NCBI GenBank assembly: GCA_018335855.1
Contig: JAGXRM010000010.1
Span: forward strand, 124,001-188,000
Direction of reading: 5' to 3'
DNA length: 64,000 bases
Origin: Clostridiales bacterium
GTDB lineage: Bacteria > Bacillota > Dethiobacteria > Dethiobacterales > Dethiobacteraceae
This document shows positions 27,538 to 61,896 of the stretch, piece by piece. The position numbers were made by a program, and so were the translations under genes. The notes beneath the pieces are model-generated. The model was given only the letters and a program-made list of their open reading frames with translations. It was not told the DNA's origin and searched no databases. Position 1 is the first letter of the stretch, and every line of letters begins with the position of its first letter.

Positions 27538-27562
27538 AAAAAAGCTTCGCGTACGCGAAGCT
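27538..27562 (-). terminator. Terminator after the coiled-coil membrane protein gene
   Basis: The perfect 20-base palindrome AGCTTCGCGTACGCGAAGCT overlaps the stop codon of the upstream gene and is followed on the minus strand by six T residues. It is a compact and strong intrinsic terminator. Confidence 0.85.
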
Positions 27563-28124
27563 AGTTCAGCCAAAACCCTTCATCGTCTAATAAACCCGAA
27601 CCATATAAGCCGGGGAATTCGTCTAATCTGCTGCTTACAAGCTGACCGCCTTTAAAAAAGAGATACAGACCCGTCGGATCCTGTTCAAAAGGTGAAAACA
27701 CCCATACTTCCCTGTTAAACTGCGGGTTTACAGCAATACTCCGGATTAATACCGGCGGTTCACCCAGGAGTTCCCGTACTCTTGCCACAGACTCTCCGGT
27801 CAGTGTGGTCGTCTCCGGCGTTGGGAAGTAAGCTTCCCACCCCGGTTTTGGCTGGCGGTTAATTACCGGAGCAGGCGCCTGTCCCTGATTCCGGAGTTGT
27901 TCCACTTCTTCCTCCAGTTGTGCAACCTGGGATTCCAACTCCCCGTTTTCAGTGGCAAGCGTTTCTTTTTCGTTTTCCAAAGCTTCTACCCGGGCCTGCA
28001 AATTAGCAATCTGTACATTCTTCTGGGTCGGTCTCGTCAGAAGATATGTAATACCGGACGCCAGCAGTGCTGTTATTGCTGCTGTAATCACAACAGGCGT
28101 CACCCAACTGTGTTTCCTGTCCAA
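27561..28124 (-). CDS. Membrane-anchored coiled-coil protein of unknown function
   Basis: The 187-residue product is not recognised. Residues 9-29 form one membrane helix (WVTPVVITAAITALLASGITYLL). A heptad-patterned coiled coil follows (about 38-80, rich in Leu, Glu and Asn), then a Pro-rich hinge and a C-terminal domain of about 95 residues with VWVFSPFEQDPTGLYLFFKGG. The coil and domain would lie outside the cell. The gene is alone, with its own terminator, between the threonine genes and cspA. Confidence 0.7.
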   Translation of the reverse strand: MDRKHSWVTPVVITAAITALLASGITYLLTRPTQKNVQIANLQARVEALENEKETLATENGELESQVAQLEEEVEQLRNQGQAPAPVINRQPKPGWEAYFPTPETTTLTGESVARVRELLGEPPVLIRSIAVNPQFNREVWVFSPFEQDPTGLYLFFKGGQLVSSRLDEFPGLYGSGLLDDEGFWLN

Positions 28125-54308: not shown

Positions 54309-54953
54309 TTACGGGGGCAAAAACTGCAAAATAATACCCGCCAGTTGATAAAGATATGAGCTGTCCAGGTCCTGTTGGAATACCCTAAATATTGTCATAA
54401 AACTAACCGCATCTAAGGCAATACAAATTACTGCCGACAAAAGAACACCATGAACGGCCCCAATCATCATACCGAACATTTTTTGCCACTCCGGAAGCAA
54501 TTCACTCCGTGAATTTTGCTGACCAAGACGTATCAGCAATGTAGCAACAGAAGCAATTAAGAGAAAAAAAGCAGCCGCGCAAAAAATACGAATTACTACC
54601 TGGGTGAGTAAAACAGCAGACATTTCCCTGCCGGCAACGGGAACGGCGGCCAGCTCCGGAGCCATCCGGAACAGGGCATCTCCCGCCAGCCGGGGCAGTA
54701 GAATTAATGGTGTATTCTGCGAATATGTAGTAACCGCAACATCGACTTGATTCGCAATATAAACACGCACCAGCTCTTCAATCTGCCACTCCATGTCTAA
54801 ATATGCCGCAAGGGGCGTTTGTAAAACGACGGCAGCCACTAACGCCACTGTCGTCGTACTTAAATGAAGAAAGGCCAAGCAGGCTCCGTTTATATATCCT
54901 TTTGCCGCTGACCATAACACCAAAGTAAGAGCTGCTAAATCGACCCAGGACAT
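54309..54953 (-). CDS. CvpA family membrane protein
   Basis: From the ATG at 54951-54953 (after AGAGGTG) the protein has 214 residues and begins MSWVDLAALTLVLWSAAKGYINGA, the CvpA-type start. Four hydrophobic segments are visible: the N-terminus, about 25-45, about 115-140 and about 165-190. CvpA-like proteins have been linked to colicin export and envelope maintenance; the mechanism is unknown. An exact Noc-binding palindrome lies 29 bases upstream of the start codon, inside the probable leader. Confidence 0.82.
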   Translation of the reverse strand: MSWVDLAALTLVLWSAAKGYINGACLAFLHLSTTTVALVAAVVLQTPLAAYLDMEWQIEELVRVYIANQVDVAVTTYSQNTPLILLPRLAGDALFRMAPELAAVPVAGREMSAVLLTQVVIRIFCAAAFFLLIASVATLLIRLGQQNSRSELLPEWQKMFGMMIGAVHGVLLSAVICIALDAVSFMTIFRVFQQDLDSSYLYQLAGIILQFLPP

Positions 54954-54976: not shown

Positions 54977-55000
54977 TTGATATTTCCCGGGAAATATCAA
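54977..55000. promoter_or_regulatory. Noc-binding site (NBS), 24-base perfect palindrome
   Basis: The centre ATTTCCCGGGAAAT (54982-54995) equals the published B. subtilis Noc-binding consensus, and the dyad extends five bases further on each side without mismatch. A noc gene lies 6 kb away in this window. It is placed between the cvpA promoter and start codon. Confidence 0.8.
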
Positions 55001-55023: not shown

Positions 55024-55053
55024 ATATTATTTTGACTCTTTACAAAATGTTAA
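55024..55053 (-). promoter_or_regulatory. Sigma-A promoter of cvpA
   Basis: TTAACA and TAATAT on the minus strand are 18 bases apart. The start point would fall near 55017, so the Noc palindrome is in the first 40 bases of the transcript region. Confidence 0.55.
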
Positions 55054-55132
55054 CACATCATCCTTGAGTACAGTATAAAAAAGCCTTAGCTTCAATATAC
55101 TATGATAAATGTATTCTAGATGGAGGGTCGCT

Positions 55133-55759
55133 ATGTCAGCGTTTCAAAGCCCGGTCATTACCGGGGAAGATAAAAAAACATTTCGTGTTGACAGTTCCGA
55201 CCCCTTTGCCGTTCAAAAACTAAAATGGGCGCTTCAGCAGTTTCTTGCCGACCTGTATAAGCCGCAATATCATCAACTTATTGTGCTATGTATCGGCACA
55301 GACAGATCCACAGGTGATTCCTTAGGGCCTTTAATCGGTACAAAAGTGAGTCGGTTGCAGCCAAAGCGGGCTGTTATATACGGAACCCTGGAAGAGCCTG
55401 TCCACGCTGTCAATCTGGAGGAAACGGTGGCAGAAATCGAACGCCTTTACCACTACCCCCTGATTATAGCTGTAGATGCCTGTCTGGGGCGGGCGGAAAG
55501 TGTGGGAGCAATTGACATCGGCCTGGGACCGATGCAGCCGGGTGCCGGGGTTAATAAAACGCTCCCGCCCGTCGGACAGTTACATATAAACGGCATAGTT
55601 AACGTTGGAGGTTTTTTAGAATATTTTGTTTTACAAAATACCCGCTTGAGCGTGGTTATCCGAATCGCGGAGGCCATTGCCAGAGGTTTATATCTTGGGT
55701 TGCAAAGCCTGCCGCAGACAGCAGACACAAGCAAGTCGCTACCCCTGCAGCGGGTATAA
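55133..55759 (+). CDS. yyaC: Spore protein YyaC (germination-protease-like)
   Basis: From the ATG at 55133 (after TGGAGGG) the protein has 208 residues. CIGTDRSTGDSLGPLIG and VDACLGRAESVGAIDI match YyaC (DUF1256), a family related in fold to the spore germination protease GPR and found in spore formers. In B. subtilis it also lies beside parAB. Its activity is not established. It runs opposite to its neighbours and is followed by a bidirectional terminator. The upstream region has A/T-rich words that could suit a forespore sigma factor, but the match is too loose to call. Confidence 0.9.
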   Translation: MSAFQSPVITGEDKKTFRVDSSDPFAVQKLKWALQQFLADLYKPQYHQLIVLCIGTDRSTGDSLGPLIGTKVSRLQPKRAVIYGTLEEPVHAVNLEETVAEIERLYHYPLIIAVDACLGRAESVGAIDIGLGPMQPGAGVNKTLPPVGQLHINGIVNVGGFLEYFVLQNTRLSVVIRIAEAIARGLYLGLQSLPQTADTSKSLPLQRV

Positions 55760-59187: not shown

Positions 59188-59203
59188 AGTTTCACGTGAA
59201 ACA
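59188..59203. promoter_or_regulatory. parS site 1
   Basis: AGTTTCACGTGAAACA matches the 16-base ParB-binding consensus at 15 positions. It lies 24 bases from a second, perfect copy, downstream of parB. Confidence 0.93.
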
Positions 59204-59211
59204 TCTCTAAA

Positions 59212-59227
59212 TGTTTCACGTGAAACA
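59212..59227. promoter_or_regulatory. parS site 2
   Basis: TGTTTCACGTGAAACA is a perfect parS consensus. Together with site 1 it forms a tandem loading point for ParB close to the origin. Confidence 0.97.
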
Positions 59228-59267: not shown

Positions 59268-60107
59268 TTACCCCTGAAAAAAAAGTTCGCAAATTCGATC
59301 CAGTTCATCCTGGTCGCTGAAGTGAACTTCCACCCGGCCACTGCCATTGTTTGCAAGACGGACATTCACAACGGTGCCGCAATGCTCACGGAGCCGGTCT
59401 TCCAAATCAGTAAGGTAAAAATCCTTAACAACGGTTTTACTGGTACTGCGTCGACGTTGTCCTTGCCCGGCCAGCCGCTCCGTTTCACGCACAGACAGCC
59501 CCAACTCCATCACCTTTTTAGAAGCCTCCGGTTGTTTTTCTAAGGGAAGGGCCAGAATCGCCCGGGCATGACCCTCGGACAGTCGGCCTGCTGACACCTC
59601 TTTACGCACTTCCGCATGCAGTGCAGTCAGCCTCAGAGTATTTGCCACAGCCGATCTGCTTTTTCCCACTCTTTCCGCCAGTTGTTCCTGAGTGTAGCCA
59701 AACTCATCCAACAGCCGCTGATATGCTTCCGCTTCTTCAAGGGGATTCAGGTCTTCGCGCTGCAAATTTTCAATTAGCGCGATTTCCATCATTTGCCGGT
59801 CAGAAAGAGGTTTAATTACAACAGGCACGCGGGGCAGCCCAGCCATTTTTGCCGCCCGCAGACGCCTTTCTCCGGCAACCAGTTGGTATGACTCACCGGA
59901 AGGACGCACAATTAACGGCTGAAGCACACCGTGTTGCTCTATGGAACGTGCCAGCTCAGCCAGCTTGTCCTGGTCGAAGCTCTTCCGGGGTTGGTGCGGG
60001 TTCACACTGATTTCAGCTACCTCAACTTCAATGGCGTCAGATAAAGGCGCATCTTCTATTTCGGGGATTAAGGCCTGTAGCCCTTTACCCAGCCTATTCT
60101 TGTTCAT
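59268..60107 (-). CDS. parB: Chromosome partitioning protein ParB (Spo0J)
   Basis: The 279-residue CTP-dependent clamp has the N-terminal nuclease-like CTPase domain (HQPRKSFDQ, GERRLRAAKMAGL), the helix-turn-helix TQEQLAERVGKSRSAVANTLRL that binds parS, and a C-terminal dimer domain. It loads at the two parS sites 40 bases downstream of its gene and recruits SMC. It overlaps parA by 14 bases. Confidence 0.96.
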   Translation of the reverse strand: MNKNRLGKGLQALIPEIEDAPLSDAIEVEVAEISVNPHQPRKSFDQDKLAELARSIEQHGVLQPLIVRPSGESYQLVAGERRLRAAKMAGLPRVPVVIKPLSDRQMMEIALIENLQREDLNPLEEAEAYQRLLDEFGYTQEQLAERVGKSRSAVANTLRLTALHAEVRKEVSAGRLSEGHARAILALPLEKQPEASKKVMELGLSVRETERLAGQGQRRRSTSKTVVKDFYLTDLEDRLREHCGTVVNVRLANNGSGRVEVHFSDQDELDRICELFFQG

Positions 60108-60861
60108 TGGCGATCACTTCCTTTGCCAATAATTGATACATTTCCGCACCTTTGGACCGTTCATCGTAAGTAAGGATCGATTGCCCGTGACTCGGCGCCT
60201 CACTTAACCGGACATTGCGGGGTATAACCGCTTTAAAAACACGACTGCCAAAAAACTTATGGACTTCATCTGCTACCTGTGACGCCAGATTTGTTCGGGC
60301 ATCATACATCGTTAATAGCACACCCTCGTAACGCAGGGCGCTGTTTAAGTGTTTTTGCACCAACTTAACGGTGTTCGTCAACTGGCTTAAGCCTTCTAAG
60401 GCGTAATATTCGCACTGAATCGGTACAAGCACCGTGTCGGCAGCTGTCAGGGCGTTGATTGTCAGCAAGCCAAGGGAAGGAGGGCAATCAATAATTATGT
60501 AATCATAACGCTCGCGAATACCCTCGAGTACCCGGCGCAACCGTACTTCCCGGGACATAGTCGGAACCAGTTCAATTTCGGCACCCGCCAGTTGAATGGT
60601 GGCAGGGACGACATCAAGCCCGTCCAAAGAAGATTTCTGGATCACCTTTTCCAGCGGTATGTCATTAATCAGAACATCATAGATGCAAGCCTGAATCCGA
60701 CGCTTTTCTAAGCCTATTCCACTGGTGGCGTTCCCCTGGGGATCAATGTCCAATAATAGGACGGCCTTCCCCGCTGCCGCCAGGTATGCGCTTAAATTAA
60801 CCGACGTAGTTGTTTTACCCACGCCGCCTTTCTGGTTAGCTATTGCTATCACGCGTTTCAT
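60094..60861 (-). CDS. parA: Chromosome partitioning ATPase ParA (Soj)
   Basis: The 255-residue protein starts MKRVIAIANQKGGVGKTTTSVNLSAYLA, with the deviant Walker A motif, and shows DIDPQGNATSG and IIDCPPSLGLLTINAL. It forms ATP-dependent dimers on DNA and in Firmicutes also acts on DnaA. It is followed by parB with a 14-base overlap. Confidence 0.97.
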   Translation of the reverse strand: MKRVIAIANQKGGVGKTTTSVNLSAYLAAAGKAVLLLDIDPQGNATSGIGLEKRRIQACIYDVLINDIPLEKVIQKSSLDGLDVVPATIQLAGAEIELVPTMSREVRLRRVLEGIRERYDYIIIDCPPSLGLLTINALTAADTVLVPIQCEYYALEGLSQLTNTVKLVQKHLNSALRYEGVLLTMYDARTNLASQVADEVHKFFGSRVFKAVIPRNVRLSEAPSHGQSILTYDERSKGAEMYQLLAKEVIANEQE

Positions 60862-61008
60862 ATCGACACCTCACTTCTCCGCTGTACAATATATTCGCGC
60901 CGCACCTGCCGTCTCCTGCCAGAAGACACTGTTTGGCGACAAATTACCGCTTGAAAATCTACGAACAGTCAGATTCATTGAGAAGTGTGTCGTATAAGCC
61001 TGGTGTCA

Positions 61009-61896
61009 TTACCTGGGAAATACCCGTCCACCCTCTGCTATAGCCTGTTTGTTACCCACTTTTTCTCTTTTTTTAGGAAGACGAATCGTAATTTCCAGAA
61101 AGTCTCCATGGTCCTTTTCTGTCATTTTTGGTCCTAATCCACCTGTTTCCAGGATGGAAACCGCCTGACGGATGGTGTTAAGGAATATCCGGATATCTCT
61201 GATGATTACTTTCTTCCGTTCTTTAACTACTGTTTCTGCCTGGTTGTTGATAATTTCATCTACCCGCTTTTCCGTTTGCTTTACCGTATAGCCCAGGTTG
61301 AAAATTTCGTTGACAACTTTCATCTGTATCTCTTCATCCGGCAGCCTGAGAAGTGCTCTGGCATGTCGTTCTGTTAGATCCTGGGACAGAAGAAGCTCTT
61401 TAACACGGGATGGCAGCTTAAGCAATCTTAATTTATTGGCGATAGTAGGCTGAGACTTGCCTAATCTTTGCGCCAAAACTTCCTGTGTTAAGCCGAATTC
61501 TTCCAGCAGCCTGCCATAGCCTTCCGCTTCTTCAATAAAGTTCAGGTCTTCCCGCTGCAGGTTTTCAATTAATGCGATGGTAGCCATAGCACTGTCGGAA
61601 ATGGTCCTGATCACAGCATTTATATGAGTCCACCCCAAAGATTTACAAGCCATAAGACGGCGTTCGCCTGCAATGAGTTGAAATACATCTTCCTTTTCTT
61701 TTCTGACCAGAATCGGCTGCAGGAGGCCATATGTACGTATTGACTGAGCAAGTTCATCTATTTTCCCGGCATCAAAGGTCTTGCGGGGCTGAAAGGGGTT
61801 AGGTCGAATATTCTCAACAGGAACGACTTGTGTTTCACCCTGGTCAATCTCAGCTTCATCAATGTTTATAAGCTTCTTCCATGCCTCATTCATCAT
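61009..61896 (-). CDS. noc: Nucleoid occlusion protein Noc (ParB paralogue)
   Basis: The 295-residue protein is a second ParB-family member between rsmG and parA, the usual place of noc. It has RPNPFQPRKTFD, an AGERRLMACKSLG box, IENLQREDLNFIEEA and the helix-turn-helix TQEVLAQRLGKSQPTIANKLRL. Noc binds NBS sites and keeps the division septum off the chromosome. The usual GERRxR box has Met in place of the last Arg, although the ParB of this window keeps it. GGAGG precedes two consecutive ATG codons. A perfect NBS occurs at 54977-55000. Confidence 0.92.
   Translation of the reverse strand: MMNEAWKKLINIDEAEIDQGETQVVPVENIRPNPFQPRKTFDAGKIDELAQSIRTYGLLQPILVRKEKEDVFQLIAGERRLMACKSLGWTHINAVIRTISDSAMATIALIENLQREDLNFIEEAEGYGRLLEEFGLTQEVLAQRLGKSQPTIANKLRLLKLPSRVKELLLSQDLTERHARALLRLPDEEIQMKVVNEIFNLGYTVKQTEKRVDEIINNQAETVVKERKKVIIRDIRIFLNTIRQAVSILETGGLGPKMTEKDHGDFLEITIRLPKKREKVGNKQAIAEGGRVFPR

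Follow-up and report, generated by a model that had tools for sequence, protein, structure and literature searches.

A conserved candidate Noc-binding site in the leader of an origin-linked cvpA gene of Dethiobacter-like bacteria

A perfect 24-bp dyad at positions 54977-55000 (TTGATATTTCCCGGGAAATATCAA; unstranded) lies in the leader of an origin-linked cvpA gene in the 64,000-nucleotide stretch of DNA analysed here (the window). Its 14-bp core, at 54982-54995, is an exact copy of the Noc-binding site (NBS), and we are fairly confident that the dyad represents a genuine high-affinity NBS, which would probably be the main origin-proximal nucleation point of Noc in this lineage. The NBS itself is an element of a known kind; what is new here is that the one in the cvpA leader is conserved across the Dethiobacter-like family.

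The dyad equals its own reverse complement over the full 24 bp, as the initial annotation had it, and the bases just outside (G and A) are unpaired. The window contains four perfect palindromes of at least 16 bp, of which this is the longest and the parS site at 59212-59227 is another. The NBS is defined as the 14-bp palindrome ATTTCCCGGGAAAT, in which A1 and C6 differ from parS, and the core of the dyad matches it at every position. Furthermore, the 20 bp at the centre of the dyad also form the centre of the 22-bp NBS duplex that was used for the in vitro loading of B. subtilis Noc-CTP (PMC8429893), and the proposed identity of the core with the B. subtilis Noc consensus is borne out. The core is the sole exact match to the NBS 14-mer in the window, where 12 matches at up to 3 mismatches were counted against 4.61 expected from shuffles, and also the sole exact match in its own genome (2.96 Mb, 99.5% complete). 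A search for parS-like sites (TGTTTCACGTGAAACA) at up to 3 mismatches returned two sites; the dyad was not among them, and it is not classed as parS. A 20-bp perfect palindrome at 27543-27562, followed by a T-run on the reverse strand, is an intrinsic terminator of the ordinary type, placed where the gene at 27561-28124 ends.

A protein suited to such a site is encoded nearby. The noc gene (61009-61896, reverse strand), which codes for a nucleoid occlusion protein of 295 amino acids, lies 6.0 kb from the dyad, in agreement with the 6 kb first estimated. Its product scores 340.7 bits against TIGR04285 (cut-off 315), and the adjacent Spo0J just 248.7 bits. The best PDB sequence matches of the window Noc are three Noc entries, and where the window protein reads QPTIANKLRLLK these three proteins read QSTIANKLRLLK. 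On the same strand follow soj (parA; 60094-60861; AAA_31, 242.8 bits), which owes its name partly to gene order, all its ParA-type NCBIfam matches being under their cut-offs, and spo0J (parB; 59268-60107). A consensus search detected two unstranded parS sites beside them (59188-59227), one with 1 mismatch at 59188-59203 and one perfect at 59212-59227, the latter about 4.2 kb from the dyad. The parS consensus used for these two sites agrees with the parS oligonucleotide of the cited Noc loading work. The dyad is 13.6 kb from the start of dnaA in its own genome, a gene that we take to be dnaA from its sequence. Four residues set the preference for NBS or parS: Q, K, K and R in Noc, and R, T, A and G in Caulobacter ParB (PMC7383237). 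When the positions from that paper were mapped by anchoring on the conserved GKS...AN and HAR motifs, the equivalents of Q173, K179, K184 and R201 were Q/K/K/R in the window Noc and R/T/A/G, the parS type, in Spo0J. As a measure of the amphipathic membrane helix expected at the N-terminus of Noc, the hydrophobic moment of MNEAWKKLINI is 0.60; the Spo0J control gave 0.64, hence this measure does not separate the two proteins.

With the window Noc as query, matches were obtained in 58 of 59 genomes, a count in which Spo0J paralogues also match; in some genomes (e.g. G018 and G056) the best match is at Spo0J level only. In G001, a relative of the same genus, stops and a frame change interrupt the noc gene (L085, G001:C4:39378-40351); the NBS in the cvpA leader of that genome is perfect. 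Genome G028, which is 90% complete, has 13 NBS sites and gave no Noc match. These two results speak against a tight link between NBS and Noc, and may both reflect assembly gaps or frameshifts.

Further NBS are present across the genome. At up to 1 mismatch the genome of origin has 7 sites, where the reversed pattern gave 0 and a composition-matched palindrome 2; at up to 2 mismatches the corresponding numbers were 59, 5 and 27. The reversed control is too lenient and overstates the enrichment at 2 mismatches, and an excess remains over the composition-matched one. Across the 59 genomes, the search at up to 1 mismatch returned 616 NBS, against 34 reversed and 70 matched-palindrome sites. The genome scan that the initial annotation had proposed thus revealed more than the few or no further sites that it named as evidence against its reading. 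When 65 one-mismatch NBS outside cvpA, from six genomes, were compared, positions 4 and 7 varied most (21 sites each); position 6, the base read by a Noc-specific arginine (PMC7383237), was altered in just 3. Six of the 59 genomes (G000, G001, G005, G007, G009 and G011) were surveyed for the context of their sites. They hold 13 perfect NBS; the cvpA-leader site accounts for 5 of these and has no other perfect copy beside it in 4 of the 6 genomes. By a simple open-reading-frame rule, the other NBS at up to 1 mismatch lie mostly inside genes.

The genome of origin is in 60 contigs, and the position of NBS relative to origin and terminus was looked at in a closed genome of another family (G021). 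Among the 50 sites listed of its 59 NBS at up to 2 mismatches there is a gap at 1.01-1.44 Mb, and NBS occur on either side of the skew change near 1.5 Mb; no clear depletion at the terminus is seen among these sites, and 1.89-2.07 Mb is a stretch of mixed skew. Of the suggestion that the dyad marks the origin region for division control, an NBS and its cognate Noc in the origin region are well supported by sequence; an origin-biased distribution of NBS along the genome is a possibility only.

The cvpA leaders compared numbered 18 (17 from genomes of the same family, plus record L069), counted without L032, a C-terminal fragment at a contig end, and without repeat loci of the same genomes; G003 and G018 gave no cvpA match. 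An NBS with up to 2 mismatches is present in 15 of the 18 leaders, 12 of the sites having at most 1 mismatch and 7 being perfect, and such a site arose in 2 of 9000 shuffled leaders. In these 15 leaders its centre lies 29.5-35.5 bp ahead of the cvpA start codon. The mean majority-base fraction is 0.90 over the 14 NBS columns, 0.49 over the 45 columns upstream, 0.56 between NBS and ATG, and 0.76 over cvpA codons 2-10. When each genus was represented by a single genome and L069 was added, these fractions became 0.92, 0.53, 0.57 and 0.75, respectively. Identity of CvpA to the window protein is merely 27-46% across the same family. Conservation of position suggests that the cvpA-leader NBS is important. 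The leaders of G016 and G005 (2 of 18) carry no NBS, and that of G004 exceeds 2 mismatches, although an intact half-site remains (4 mismatches). Outside the family, none of 9 cvpA loci has an NBS with up to 3 mismatches within 200 bp upstream; these 9 cvpA matches have weak E values (1e-5 to 3e-4), and it is uncertain where the genes start. Since 3 of 18 family leaders and 9 of 9 outside loci lack the site, it appears to be dispensable over longer time scales. An extended motif, NBS plus ATCWACAAAA, matched only cvpA leaders at 0-1 mismatches when searched in the family. It was rejected as a general feature of the cvpA and leuS sites, as the latter match only at 3 mismatches; the scoring pattern was drawn up after seeing the sites and is hence circular.

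The gene that follows the dyad (54309-54953, reverse strand) codes for a divergent CvpA-family membrane protein of 214 amino acids (PF02674, 39.7 bits; cut-off 29.3). Most genomes of the family carry two CvpA-family genes, one canonical and one divergent and origin-linked, the latter being the gene at 54309-54953; the canonical cvpA of the genome of origin is at G000:C7:119811-120281. The start codon is best placed at 54953, in agreement with the conserved MSW..D start of the relatives; an SD-like AGAGGTGA precedes it, and the NBS core lies 28 bp upstream of it. The open reading frame stays open as far as an ATG at 55025, and an N-terminal extension of CvpA from there would make the dyad coding. 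This was rejected, because in 4 of the 15 relatives that conserve the site its frame with respect to the start of cvpA is a different one (site centred at -33.5 or -34.5, against -29.5, -32.5 or -35.5 in the others), and we conclude that the dyad is leader and not coding sequence. Consensus scoring for sigma-A-like promoters gave none above the 95% level of shuffled sequences in the 18 leaders, the best being near the shuffled median. The dyad had been placed between promoter and start codon: it does lie upstream of the start codon, and a promoter above the shuffled 95% level was not found.

On the other side of the leader is yyaC, a divergent spore protease gene (55133-55759, forward strand; TIGR02841, 209.4 bits, cut-off 84.9), whose start at 55133 was picked by eye behind an SD-like GGAGGG, the reading frame being listed from 55109. 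The leader alignment contains a second strongly conserved block, non-coding, at 55093-55113 (forward strand), which is TATATGATAGTATATGG-like on the cvpA strand and has a TTATGTG-like partner; this is probably the sporulation promoter of yyaC together with its 5′ end. The distance from NBS to this block is more variable than that from NBS to the cvpA start. In G001, yyaC was not found and the yyaC-side block is gone; the NBS is perfect. Since this genome keeps a perfect NBS without a detected yyaC, we assign the site to cvpA or the locus and not to yyaC. Both the break in noc and the absence of yyaC in G001 could be either real losses or assembly errors.

Two other NBS are kept in place within the family. 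One, which has 2 mismatches in the window (61008-61021, unstranded), is located at the stop codon of noc and 160 bp ahead of soj. This weaker noc-soj site, mostly ATTTCCCAGGCAAT, recurs at 13 of 17 family loci (61008-61021 of the window; L079-L084, L086, L087, L089, L091 and L093-L095), 130-170 bp upstream of soj; the 17 noc loci come from 19 family genomes, G017 and G018 being left out. Relative to the noc stop it ranges from -68 to +7, and it is conserved independently of the position of the stop. A feedback on the partition operon is a possible role for it. The other lies exactly 2 nt past the stop codon of leuS in 14 of 18 family genomes (loci L196-L213; G017, the nineteenth, has no true leuS match), and is followed by a conserved A[TA]TG[TA]CAAAA-like flank; comEA is usually the next gene. 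Linkage to comEA was rejected as the reason for this site, which is kept in four genomes (G004, G012, G016 and G018) where comEA was not detected downstream. In two genomes of family f2 (G019, L099; G022, L098) a perfect NBS lies about 320-350 bp upstream of noc, so that by sequence this family, too, has a strong site close to noc, in another position than in the Dethiobacter-like family. An NBS is present within mutS2 of G001, G007 and G009 (L130, L168 and L190), about 2-5 kb from the canonical cvpA paralogue, and in the genome of origin an NBS with 2 mismatches (G000:C7:124700-124713) lies 4.4 kb from canonical cvpA.

The reading that we prefer is that the dyad nucleates Noc near the origin. 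Noc made 6 kb away would dock on the dyad via its helix-turn-helix and close into a CTP clamp; clamps would then spread across the origin region, beside the complex of parS-bound Spo0J, and tether this region to the membrane, which would keep the division ring off it. Docking, clamp closure, spreading and membrane tethering have been described for B. subtilis Noc (PMC8429893, PMC4331003). For the present organism we infer binding, spreading, tethering and any effect on cvpA. Noc bound at the dyad, or sliding from it, would also be expected to hinder transcription of cvpA, because the dyad sits in the cvpA leader, 28 bp before the start codon.

An alternative, possible rather than probable in our judgement, is that the site is retained as an operator: Noc would repress cvpA or set the time of its expression, the origin-linked CvpA would be made only while no Noc occupies the origin region, and nucleation for nucleoid occlusion would be secondary. 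In 15 of 18 leaders the NBS centre stays 29.5-35.5 bp ahead of the start of cvpA, and the distance to the yyaC block varies more; this is in keeping with such an operator, as is G001, where the perfect site goes with cvpA in a genome in which yyaC was not found. There are precedents: KorB, a ParB-like CTP clamp, represses promoters (PMC11790492), SlmA activates the chb promoter of V. cholerae (PMC5519180), and for S. aureus Noc a small peak has been seen at the dnaA promoter (PMC5540599). The authors of the last study, however, judged Noc unlikely to act via dnaA expression (PMC5540599), and no promoter above shuffles was detected in any of the 18 leaders. Moreover, the NBS at the 3′ end of leuS is equally fixed and is kept in the four genomes without a detected comEA; as that site stays in place with no consistent gene downstream, conservation of position does not require regulation of the downstream gene. 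Repression of cvpA by Noc is plausible.

A broader proposal is that Noc of the Dethiobacter-like bacteria regulates genes in addition to inhibiting division, the strong NBS in the cvpA leader and that between noc and soj tying expression to Noc occupancy. We regard it as speculative and rather doubtful. Synthesis of the CvpA paralogue would then depend on the occupancy of the newly replicated origin by Noc, and the weaker noc-soj site would do likewise for the partition operon. If this were true, Noc would couple nucleoid occlusion to the expression of envelope and segregation genes, and capture of the origin by the membrane would occur at a gene whose own product inserts into the membrane.

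The dyad might instead be the site of another regulator or a chance palindrome. Either is very improbable, given that shuffled leaders so seldom reach 2 mismatches or fewer (2 of 9000), that the variants in the leaders follow the genome-wide NBS spectrum, with the Noc-specific position 6 altered in 3 of 65, and that the gene for a cognate Noc, whose specificity residues match, lies 6 kb away. Least credible of all is an RNA element, in which the dyad, lying ahead of the SD in what is presumed to be the 5′ untranslated region, would form a hairpin in the cvpA mRNA for leader regulation or mRNA stability: the fold of the leader is no better than those of its shuffles (z -0.36), its minimum-free-energy structure does not pair the two arms of the dyad, there is no Rfam match at E up to 1, no T-run follows the dyad on either strand, so that hairpin, riboswitch and terminator were all rejected, and the family variants at position 4 (ATTACCCGGGAAAT, ATTCCCCGGGAAAT and ATTACCCGGGCAAT) break a hairpin pair, an argument softened by position 4 also being among the two most variable elsewhere (21 of 65 one-mismatch NBS).

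The NBS of B. subtilis and S. aureus have the same 14-bp core as the dyad. They number about 70 (PMC4331003) and 41 (PMC5540599), respectively, and here there are 59 candidates at up to 2 mismatches. What differs here is a site fixed in the leader of one gene family-wide, with no second perfect NBS in 4 of the 6 genomes surveyed; the literature searched gave no report of such a site. The parS sites of ParB/Spo0J are likewise origin-proximal palindromes bound by a CTP clamp of the ParB family. Their core differs from the NBS at positions 1 and 6, which are A and C in the NBS (PMC7383237), and parS is here served by the paralogue with R/T/A/G residues, Spo0J, and not by Noc. At the KorB operators of RK2 a ParB-like clamp acts on a promoter, in that case working with KorA (PMC11790492); at the chb site of V. 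cholerae a nucleoid occlusion protein does so, though SlmA is TetR-like and not ParB-like (PMC5519180). Compared with KorB and SlmA, the transcriptional role of the cvpA-leader dyad is a candidate one, based on sequence. That literature, in which subscription papers were few, also yielded no report that places an NBS at cvpA or that deals with Noc in Dethiobacter. The original B. subtilis NBS paper is said to be that of Wu et al. 2009.

These results extend the Noc/NBS system, known from Bacilli, to the Dethiobacter-like lineage, in which both halves of it are present. Here individual NBS stay put across genera (in the cvpA leader, between noc and soj, and at the 3′ end of leuS), for which the papers searched gave no earlier report. 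With such conserved single sites two questions can be put to the test: i) whether individual NBS, and most of all a strong one close to the origin, are important to nucleoid occlusion, and ii) whether Noc controls genes as well.
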